From assembly GCA_021805545.1 (NCBI GenBank), contig JAJZFB010000046.1:1-64000 (forward strand): a stretch of DNA of 64,000 bases, in the 5' to 3' direction. This stretch comes from Pseudomonadota bacterium. GTDB taxonomy: Bacteria > Pseudomonadota > Alphaproteobacteria > Acetobacterales > Acetobacteraceae. Shown one piece after another: positions 55,124 through 57,360 of the stretch. Every line of letters begins with the position of its first letter. Position 1 is the stretch's first letter. Position numbers and translations under genes: made by a program. A model generated the notes under the pieces. It was not told the origin of the DNA, did not search any database, and saw only the letters and a program-made list of their open reading frames with translations.

Positions 55124-56425
55124 TTACCACTTGATGGTGGCACCGGCGGCCACGCCCTGGGCGTGAGAATTGCCGTGCGGCAGGGTGGTGGCGGTGGAAC
55201 CATGCACGTTGCCGTACATATACTGCACGAACAGGCTCATCGGCTTGGCAACCACATAGTTGGCGCCCACGGCCACACCATATTCGCTCAGCGTATGGCC
55301 CTGCACCTCGGCGCCCACCTTGCCATTGGCTTCCTGGCTATCGAAGAACGAAGCGCCCAGCGCGTAAGGCCCGTTCACGTAAGACGCGCCAACGATATAG
55401 GCCATGGCATCGCGGCCGCCCTTCTTCTTGAACTGATACCCATCAACCACGGAACCCGACTTGACGTTGGCGCCCAGCGTGATGTTGTCAGCATTGGTGA
55501 ACAGGCCGGTGATGGTGGTCTGAATACCCGCCTGGAACACGCCCATCGGCGAATAGGCCTGCGCCCCGGTGGTGTTACCCAGCGGCGAGGAGCGCAGATA
55601 ACCAACCGAGAGCTTGGTATCGAACGCCCCGGCCTTCACGCTGTAGCCGGCCATCGCGTCAAACGTGTTGCGGCGGCGGCTGGCGCTGCCCCCGGCAACG
55701 GCGCTGTTCAGCTCGCTGCTCGAGCTGGAAATGGCCGAAGCGCCTTCCTTGATGCCGTTGGAGTTCGGCTCAAAGCTCACGATAAAGCCGAACTTGCCGT
55801 CCAGCACGGGGTCCTGAATGGACGGGGATATGTAAACGATCTTGTCGGTCGTATACAGCGCCCCTTGGTCGGCATAGATGAAATTGCCCGGATGGCCGGA
55901 CGGCAGCAGGTTGATCAAACCGCCATCGGCGGTCCACTGGGCGCCATCGCCGAACTGCTCAATCACGCCATACTGCATCAGGGTAAAGGCGCCATCGGTC
56001 TGGCCAAAGCGGGCATAGCCATATTCGGCAGTGCCCAGGTAGCCATAAGCGCGGCGGACATACAGCCCGTTCACACCGTTGCTGGAAGCGCTGTTACCGT
56101 TCACGCCATTGCCATTCGCGCTGCTCAGCGCGGTGCGCAGCTCAACCTGGGCGCCATAGGCAATGCCGTTCGTGGTCATGCCGTCAAAGCCGGGGTACAG
56201 GCGCACATCGCCGATCGTGCCCAGCGAGTTGTTCTTGTACGAGGTGGCACCGGAACCGCCGCTCATGCCATTACCGCCGACAACGCCGAACATGTACTGC
56301 AGATACCCGTTCAGATGCACCTTAACAGTACCAGGGGCGACCGGGCTGGCCGCCTGGGCATGTGCCGCGCCGGCGGCGAGCAAAGTACCTGCAGCGGCAA
56401 CAGTGGAAAGAAGAAGCTTGCGCAT
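55124..56425 (-). CDS. Outer-membrane porin
   Basis: 433-aa beta-barrel porin of the alphaproteobacterial Porin_4 type. A 23-residue signal peptide ends AHA before QA; the mature protein is rich in Gly, Ser, Asn and alternating strands, and ends in the aromatic residue Trp (GATIKW) used by the BAM complex. ATG 56425 is chosen because AGGAG lies nine bases upstream; the ATG at 56434 has the ribosome site directly against it. It has its own terminator and a long AT-rich upstream region with a candidate operator. Confidence 0.9.
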   Translation of the reverse strand: MRKLLLSTVAAAGTLLAAGAAHAQAASPVAPGTVKVHLNGYLQYMFGVVGGNGMSGGSGATSYKNNSLGTIGDVRLYPGFDGMTTNGIAYGAQVELRTALSSANGNGVNGNSASSNGVNGLYVRRAYGYLGTAEYGYARFGQTDGAFTLMQYGVIEQFGDGAQWTADGGLINLLPSGHPGNFIYADQGALYTTDKIVYISPSIQDPVLDGKFGFIVSFEPNSNGIKEGASAISSSSSELNSAVAGGSASRRRNTFDAMAGYSVKAGAFDTKLSVGYLRSSPLGNTTGAQAYSPMGVFQAGIQTTITGLFTNADNITLGANVKSGSVVDGYQFKKKGGRDAMAYIVGASYVNGPYALGASFFDSQEANGKVGAEVQGHTLSEYGVAVGANYVVAKPMSLFVQYMYGNVHGSTATTLPHGNSHAQGVAAGATIKW

Positions 56426-56769
56426 GAAATTCATCTCCTAGATCGCCGGTAGCCCGGCATTCGTATCGTTAAAGCCTCGAAAGAGCCGCTTCCGGCCCAC
56501 CCGTCACGGCCATGCGGCCGGACGTTTCCGCCCCTTAAGACCTCACTGAGAAATAGAGGCAATGCTTCCTGGCCTGGTTACGGCCATTTCGGCGCGACTG
56601 TGGCCAAGCCGCAACATGTATATGACATTAGTATGAAATTTTTCGCCGAAATCTCTAGTAAAATCCTCATTATGTCACTTTTATGACAGATTTAACCTTA
56701 ATATAAATACTATTTCTATAGGGAATTATGTAAATTTTCCCCGGGCATGAATCGCATCCATTCCGGGCG
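56426..56769. other. Control region upstream of the porin gene
   Basis: 344 bp without a gene, between the porin start and the end of the ThiE-like gene. The half next to the porin is GC-rich; 56615-56740 is strongly AT-rich and holds the Pho-box-like element (56672-56689) and a weaker related element (56611-56628). No RNA gene or reading frame was recognised. Confidence 0.6.
56672..56689 (-). promoter_or_regulatory. Pho-box-like element or TGTCA-N6-TGACA operator
   Basis: On the minus strand the 18 bases CTGTCATAAAAGTGACAT match the enteric Pho-box consensus (two CTGTCAT repeats with a 4-bp spacer) at 16 of 18 positions by eye. The same bases contain the perfect dyad TGTCA-N6-TGACA, the shape bound by CRP/FNR-family regulators such as CooA. 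A weak -10 (TACTAG) follows at the distance expected for a PhoB promoter. A poorer copy lies at 56611-56628. Confidence 0.5.
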
Positions 56770-57360
56770 TCAAGTTAATTGCCAATTTGGCATAAACACT
56801 TCTATCGCGCCGGCCATGGCGCAGATTTTCCTCAAGCTGCGCACGTTGCGCCCGGTAATGCCGCCCAGCGCCGCGCAACGTGCCGGCCGCGCCAGCCGCG
56901 CGAGGCGGCGCCAGCCCAGCGCCCCCAGCCCAGGGGCGCCAGCATGGCTTTTGGTGGCAAAGGCCGGAGAGATGAATATAACATCCGCCCCGGCCCGGCG
57001 CGCCCGCACCACATCGCGCGCCCTATGGGCCGAAGATGTCACAATCCCCGGCAAGGGCTGCACACCGCGCCGCCCGCCGCGCAAATGCAGCCCGGCCCGC
57101 AGCGCCGCCGCCAGCCGCGCATCGCCCGCCACCACTAAAATAAGGCGCCGCGCCCGGCAGAGCGCGGCCACGCGCCGCGCCAGCGCCACCCGGTCCGCCG
57201 CGCCATCGTGCCGGAACACCACCCCGCACAACCCGCGCGGCAACCGGCCAATAACCGGCAGCGGGTCGGGCAGGCGCGCCTGATCCGTGAAAAACCACAA
57301 GGGCGGCAATGCGGCGGGGCGCTTTACCGCGCGCCCCCAGGCCAGTAACGCTGCATCCAT
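56770..57360 (-). CDS. ThiE/TenI-like protein (thiamine phosphate synthase family)
   Basis: 196-aa TIM-barrel protein resembling thiamine phosphate synthase: LWFFTDQARLPDP at the start, GLHLRGG, ISPAFATKSHAGAPGLG (diphosphate-loop region) and ALGGITGRNV. Key ThiE residues look altered: the QLR-K segment reads VVFRHDG and the IND segment reads VVAGD, so activity is uncertain. It may be a paralogue like TenI or a diverged enzyme. Arg-rich and very GC-rich. The ATG at 57358-57360 shares CATG with the divergent yggS start; AGGG lies six bases upstream. Confidence 0.7.
   Translation of the reverse strand: MDAALLAWGRAVKRPAALPPLWFFTDQARLPDPLPVIGRLPRGLCGVVFRHDGAADRVALARRVAALCRARRLILVVAGDARLAAALRAGLHLRGGRRGVQPLPGIVTSSAHRARDVVRARRAGADVIFISPAFATKSHAGAPGLGALGWRRLARLARPARCAALGGITGRNVRSLRKICAMAGAIEVFMPNWQLT

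Follow-up and report, generated by a model that had tools for sequence, protein, structure and literature searches.

A predicted Pho box in the promoter region of a general porin gene of the Acidocella lineage

The 18 bp at positions 56672-56689 of the DNA analysed here are probably a PhoB-binding site in the promoter of a general porin gene, through which PhoB would change porin transcription upon phosphate starvation; we place the probability of this reading at roughly 0.63. PhoB is a common bacterial regulator of phosphate starvation, and the Pho box consists of two CTGTCAT-like half-sites arranged as direct repeats with an 11-bp period. At the porin, phosphate starvation would lead phosphorylated PhoB to bind the half-sites TGTCAT and TGACAT at this period, perhaps together with weaker half-sites that lie 50 bp further downstream across the core promoter, and the bound protein would alter porin transcription. 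We infer PhoB binding in the cell, the transcription start and the direction of the effect, with induction of the porin rated at about double the likelihood of repression. Support for the Pho-box reading comes from the presence of PhoB and PstS, from Pho boxes of the same type in the genus, and from recurrence of the site at part of the orthologous porins. An earlier examination of the same DNA (the sequence-only reading) had gone further and proposed a phosphate-starvation porin, which exceeds the evidence given the position of the box and of the half-sites near the -10 element.

The porin gene and the elements upstream of it

The window, i.e., the whole 64 kb stretch of DNA that was analysed, lies in contig 49 of a 2.79 Mb draft genome of the Acidocella lineage (G000, the host genome). 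The following features are discussed:

55124-56434, minus strand: porin gene, 436 aa, with a 16-strand general-porin fold (modelled)
56672-56689, minus strand: predicted distal Pho box CTGTCATAAAAGTGACAT, also a TGTCA-N6-TGACA dyad at 56673-56688
56622-56639, minus strand: proximal Pho-like repeat ATTTCATACTAATGTCAT, a better register of the weaker copy in the sequence-only reading
56598-56640, minus strand: core promoter block of 43 bp, kept in 28 Acidocella-type rows
56617-56622, minus strand: likely -10 element TATACA (TATACT in three Acidiphilium rows)
56599-56616, minus strand: dyad TGTTGC...GCCACA directly after the -10 element

Relatives of the porin that carry names are mainly from Acidocella, with Acidiphilium more distant; specifically, a match was found in 25 of 41 genomes (the host genome and 24 congeners), and the 16 genomes of other genera within the class gave none. 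The window protein had no match to Pfam or NCBIfam models, and Porin_4 was matched by 3 of 17 aligned members (best 2.7e-19). The profile of the phosphate-selective porins, Porin_O_P (PF07396), matched one of the 17 weakly (E 0.0025); the window protein did not match it and is not placed in that family. An AlphaFold model of moderate confidence (mean pLDDT 66.9, pTM 0.72) aligned with general porins at Z ~24-25 (e.g., 5o78_A: Z 25.1, rmsd 3.1, 311 residues aligned) and forms a beta-barrel, and on this model the protein is a general porin by fold. OprP and OprO were absent among the best 50 structure matches listed (VIA), which carries no weight as evidence.

The distal element sits 238-255 bp ahead of the porin start (56434), between this start and the end (56770) of a thiamine-phosphate-synthase-like gene upstream on the same minus strand. 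As the sequence-only reading had stated, CTGTCATAAAAGTGACAT lies on the porin strand and agrees with the E. coli-type Pho pattern CTGTCATAWAWCTGTCAY at 16 of 18 positions (2 mismatches). It was the sole match at up to 3 mismatches in the window (expected 0.15; at least one match in 15 of 100 shuffled windows), and the whole genome held one match with 2 mismatches, the distal element, and four with 3, against two for the reversed pattern. The perfect TGTCA-N6-TGACA dyad that had been noticed in the same bases also held up; it is single in the window (expected 0.01), and its near-perfect palindrome is of the kind expected of a CRP/FNR-family operator. Only three perfect dyads occur in the genome, at the porin, upstream of pstS and upstream of a membrane-fusion protein gene.

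The direct repeat TGTCAY-N5-TGTCAY had 33 genome matches at up to 1 mismatch compared with 3 for its reversed control, and 26 loci were read out of the 33 matches. Six were copies of one repeat. Among the other 27, two lie 50 bp from each other within the porin promoter, and pstB-phoU-phoB, pstS and a lipid kinase gene have one apiece. The distal element fits this strict form at 11 of 12 positions, and it is the only 12/12 match in the window to the wider TGHCAY-N5-TGHCAY drawn from Pho promoters of the genus (eight others at 11/12). With a matrix trained on the genus pstB boxes alone, the porin left out, it scored 7.8, fourth in the window, where training sites score 17-30. Where a -10 element would be expected after the distal box, the bases resemble one only weakly, and the box lies ~60-80 bp upstream of the likely transcription start.

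A weaker copy had been placed at 56611-56628 (ATGTCATATACATGTTGC), and this part of the sequence-only reading did not stand: it has 5 mismatches (counted by hand), scores -4.0 with the matrix and reads the core block 11 bp too far downstream. The better unit, 56622-56639, has the top matrix score of the window (10.0) and is among the genome matches to the direct repeat at up to 1 mismatch. It falls within the core block, which is conserved far above its surroundings, reads ATTTMAYANTAATGTCATATACATGTGGC-N6-GCCACAG in the 28 Acidocella-type rows and includes the half-sites TTTMAY-N5-TGTCAT. The proximal half-site TTTCAT (or TGTCAT) stands 10 bp before the likely -10 element, about the spacing of the genus pstB promoters. 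The next half-site overlaps the -10 element, so that this arrangement could as well mean repression, and we refrain from a firm call of induction; the half-sites close to the -10 element do not clearly suit either activation or repression. At the same place, Acidiphilium has TGTCAT-N5-TGACAT (three rows), TGTCAT-N5-TGACAC (one) and TGTCAC-N5-TGAAAT (one), four of them perfect dyads. A scan for sigma-70 promoters gave no match at the core block; since the scan demands a -35 element and a T at position 6, a promoter may nonetheless lie there.

Other features of this region were also noted. The dyad at 56599-56616 is TGTGGC-N6-GCCACA in Acidocella relatives (TGTTGC in the window), and its right arm is not conserved in Acidiphilium; the dyad could be an operator or a hairpin at the 5' end of the mRNA. 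A GCCGG...CCGGC-type hairpin at 56445-56458 (minus strand) lies just before the porin Shine-Dalgarno sequence and shows paired changes in relatives, as judged by eye. RNAalifold returned an empty structure for the porin leader, and no structured 5' leader of the mRNA is claimed. Three eukaryotic snoRNA matches from Rfam (56400-56800) were far below their gathering scores and were rejected.

Pho promoters of the genus and orthologous porin promoters

Both PhoB and PstS were above their family cut-offs in 33 of 38 genus genomes. The phoB gene of the host genome (C17:64550) adjoins phoU and pstB, and CTGTCATCGTACTGTCAC precedes this pstB-phoU-phoB cluster. In alignments with E. coli PhoB chains, among which is the pho-box complex 1gxp, the DNA-binding domain of the host protein keeps the recognition helix RTVDVHIRRLRK. 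There were 24 matches to the PhoB model in the host genome, which indicates many OmpR-family regulators.

Upstream of pstB, CTGTCATNNNACTGTCAY was found at up to 3 mismatches in 29 of 30 regions (from 30 of the 32 genomes above the cut-off), and ~10 bp separate the last half-site from a -10-like element that is conserved. A simple ORF caller gave the pstB frame of the host genome extra N-terminal codons that take in the box; this was taken as wrong because the start MEIASQ comes after the box. Boxes at pstB and pstS share the 11-bp period. At pstS, all 34 loci (33 genomes, G013 twice; the second copy of G020 was left out) have TGTCAY-N5 followed by a hexamer that never carries T at position 3: TGCAAC (23), TGCAAT (6), TGACAC (2), TGAAAC (1), GACAAC (1) and TGCCAT (1). 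TGACAC belongs to the host genome and G019; the host pstS box, TGTCATGGAATTGACAC, accounts for one of the three perfect dyads of the genome and has a TGACA second half like that of the porin. On the Acidiphilium side (n = 7, six genomes labelled Acidiphilium), pstS promoters read TGTCAT-N5-CTTCAY.

A lipid-kinase promoter, read in three genomes, carries half-sites at exact 11-bp steps: TGTCAC-5-TGCCAT-5-TGCCAT-5-CGTCAT in the host genome, TGTCAC-5-TGTCAT-5-TGACAT-5-TGTCAC in G043 and TATCAT-5-TGTCAT-5-TGTCAT-5-TGACAC in G045. One of the four half-sites is TGACAY in each of the latter two. From the pstB, pstS and lipid-kinase promoters, TG[T/A/C]CAY appears to be a fair local Pho half-site.

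The lipid-kinase (YegS/DAGK) loci (L172 at G000:C2:7476, L207 in G043 and L210 in G045) have features of their own. In L172 and L210, two of the three genomes looked at, the kinase is divergent from an LpxH/PlcP-type metallophosphoesterase; the locus is likely, from its gene content and half-sites, a phosphate-controlled lipid locus of Acidocella. In marine bacteria, plcP is described as a gene of phosphate starvation that carries putative Pho boxes (PMC4796936). Elsewhere in the host genome, three Pho-like matches (up to 1 mismatch) lie within 6 kb (L179, L180 and L181; G000:C28:2068, 5525 and 7753). This cluster holds a TonB-dependent receptor, an ExbB-type protein, an RpiR-type regulator and a binding protein with weak similarity to 2-aminoethylphosphonate binding proteins. 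A likely isochorismatase was also noted.

To compare orthologous porin promoters, 43 porin loci less L161 (no 5' gene end), together with the window and L016, gave 44 rows. Promoters were anchored on the core block; eight rows without a recognised block went unscored (L126, L138, L141, L147, L148, L149, L160 and L162, of which L126 shows the block yet was missed by the anchoring search expression), and L133 and L144 were removed as mis-anchored, which left 34. The distal direct repeat was present at up to 1 mismatch in nine of the 34 (shuffled mean 0.01, largest 1 in 400 sets) and at up to 2 mismatches in 13 (shuffled mean 0.14). Conservation upstream of orthologous porins, proposed as a check in the sequence-only reading, is therefore present but partial: the site at up to 1 mismatch was absent from the scanned stretch of the other 25, which include Acidocella aminolytica and A. 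facilis as well as every Acidiphilium row. Since the promoter rows are related, the nine positive rows are not nine independent events.

The dyad pattern was perfect in four of the 34 anchored promoters and present at up to 1 and 2 mismatches in eight and 15, respectively, also above shuffles (means of 0.00 for perfect dyads and 0.04 at up to 1 mismatch). The four perfect dyads are those of the window, L120, L123 and L150 (genomes G000, G019, G013 and G015). The other five of the nine direct repeats (L128, L129, L134, L157 and L016) carry T as the third base of the second half and are not perfect dyads, and two further repeats at up to 1 mismatch, just above the scanned stretch in L124 and L127, also have T there. 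The L016 site, CTGTCATAAAACTGTCAT, has zero mismatches to the 18-bp pattern of the sequence-only reading. Because the distal sites outside the dyad clade are direct repeats, it is the repeat and not the symmetry that is common to the lineages; two-fold symmetry at the same place across orthologous promoters, as would be expected of a CRP/FNR-family operator, was not found.

The distance between the distal box and the proximal unit is 49-53 bp (62 in L157), and the idea of a fixed phasing of the two was dropped as the spacing varies. Absence of pstS did not go cleanly with loss of the porin box, and a link between the two was dropped as well. No pstS was detected in G008, yet its porin site is kept with 1 mismatch (L134). 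This genome, the varying spacing, the promoters that lack the site, the excess of the dyad pattern over shuffles, the modest matrix score and the weak -10-like bases after the distal box all count against the PhoB reading.

Alternative readings of the distal element

The perfect dyad is probably a by-product of the Pho box, with incidental mirror symmetry, judging from the sites compared here: position 3 of the second half is free in the genus (T, A or C), and A at this position yields TGTCA-N6-TGACA, so that a single T-to-A change of a Pho half-site, also seen in the host pstS box, makes the dyad. The sequence-only reading had seen room for two regulators, which is weakly supported; perfect distal symmetry is confined to four genomes of seemingly one clade. 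Alternatively, the dyad would be the operator of a CRP/FNR-family dimer that binds TGTCA-N6-TGACA, which we consider quite unlikely. The most plausible candidate is one of three CRP-family proteins above cut-off in the host genome, a clade-specific protein with an R-Q-x-x-x-R helix (G000:C27:70004-70732); its R and Q at the first recognition-helix positions resemble CooA. Among the other 37 genus genomes, close orthologues (68-95%) occur only in G019, G015, G013 and G050, and G000, G019, G013 and G015 are the genomes that combine this protein with a perfect porin dyad. Perfect dyads number 14 in the five protein-bearing genomes versus 32 in the other 33 (11 repeat copies in G042 left out). This co-occurrence and dyad density are the strongest points against a Pho-only reading. 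Acidiphilium porin promoters, with perfect proximal dyads in four rows, also fit a dyad better than a strict direct repeat. However, the five Acidiphilium genomes searched have only ~30% homologues of the protein, G050 has the protein but yielded no perfect dyad, and other lineages retain the direct repeat rather than the symmetry. TGACAY moreover stands inside the tandem arrays of G043 and G045, both without a close orthologue, and no dyad within 2 mismatches was found upstream of the protein's own gene. Seven of eight dyad loci read in the clade are intergenic, but so are 13 of 23 in other genomes (one locus per genome, same rough ORF caller), and intergenic dyads were dropped as a decisive sign of a CRP regulon. 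One dyad shared by G013 and G015 overlaps the start codons of an orthologous gene, so that one arm may be coding. Four of the five protein-bearing genomes share PstB features that suggest one clade, and a single branch can hold both the protein and the dyad. A separate CRP-type dyad is accordingly graded as unlikely on the sites compared. A composite switch in one Acidocella clade, in which PhoB would read the direct repeat and a CRP-type protein the palindrome, with phosphate and a second signal in competition, seems very improbable.

Several observations concern these proteins and dyads in their own right. The CRP-family protein has an invariant AARQTLNRQLK helix in its five loci (L230-L234 in G000, G019, G015, G013 and G050; five of 38 genus genomes), and downstream of its gene lies an outer-membrane gene, presumably FadL-like, in four of the five (the fifth locus is too short). 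In G042 (e.g., L206) the perfect palindrome TGTCACACGTGTGACA recurs eleven times, probably as part of a dispersed repeat. The dyad TGTCATAGCGTTGACA is identical in four genomes (L208 in G006, L228 in G053, L229 in G010, and G018:C10:854).

Two further readings concern the PhoB site itself. The distal element may be a chance or inert site that PhoB may bind, while the porin is transcribed from the conserved core block with no response to PhoB; this is unlikely. Its distance from the likely -10 element and its absence from many orthologues favour such a reading, as does a report that describes PhoB sites as sometimes transcriptionally inert and inert sites as common in E. coli, though mainly intragenic there (PMC10294691). 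The recurrence at nearly the same place in nine of 34 promoters, against 0.01 in shuffles, argues against it. Some OmpR-family regulators other than PhoB, such as ChvI and CenR, read ~11-bp repeats, and the proximal block could be the operator of a ChvI- or CenR-type regulator with the distal box as its copy. Consistent with this, the core block is kept in the 28 Acidocella-type rows, including genomes without detected PstS, and the 24 PhoB-model matches leave many such regulators to choose from. The distal sites closely match the Pho boxes of the genus, however, and we regard this reading as distinctly doubtful.

Comparison with known phosphate-controlled systems

If the PhoB reading is true, the general porin of an acidophile would be under phosphate control, the PhoE/OprP theme would extend to a porin group barely recognised by Pfam, and TGHCAY-N5-TGHCAY would be a usable Pho-box grammar for Acidocella. 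It would also illustrate how a direct repeat can pass for a perfect palindrome. No report of a PhoB box at a porin promoter in this lineage was found in a limited literature search.

E. coli PhoE and Pseudomonas OprP and OprO are PhoB-activated phosphate-starvation porins. Like these, the window porin combines a 16-strand porin fold (as modelled) and a predicted upstream Pho box with PhoB in the genome; unlike these, it lacks a Pfam match and its box is far upstream. PhoE is described as a PhoB-activated phosphoporin in PMC3511308, and the same source and PMC3616915 state that Pho boxes usually overlap the -35 region. The porin half-sites share the 11-bp period of the pstS, pstB-phoU-phoB and lipid-kinase boxes of the genus, but the strong porin box, unlike that of pstB, is not followed by a conserved -10-like element ~10 bp after its last half-site. 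The two-fold symmetry of TGTCA-N6-TGACA resembles CooA and other CRP/FNR palindromes, but orthologous porin promoters do not share this symmetry. Compared with the porin dyad, the CooA consensus TGTCGGCNNGCCGACA (PMC545781) is also richer in G and C. Overall, a Pho box at this porin promoter would add one more sensible and rather unremarkable case to an established type of gene switch.
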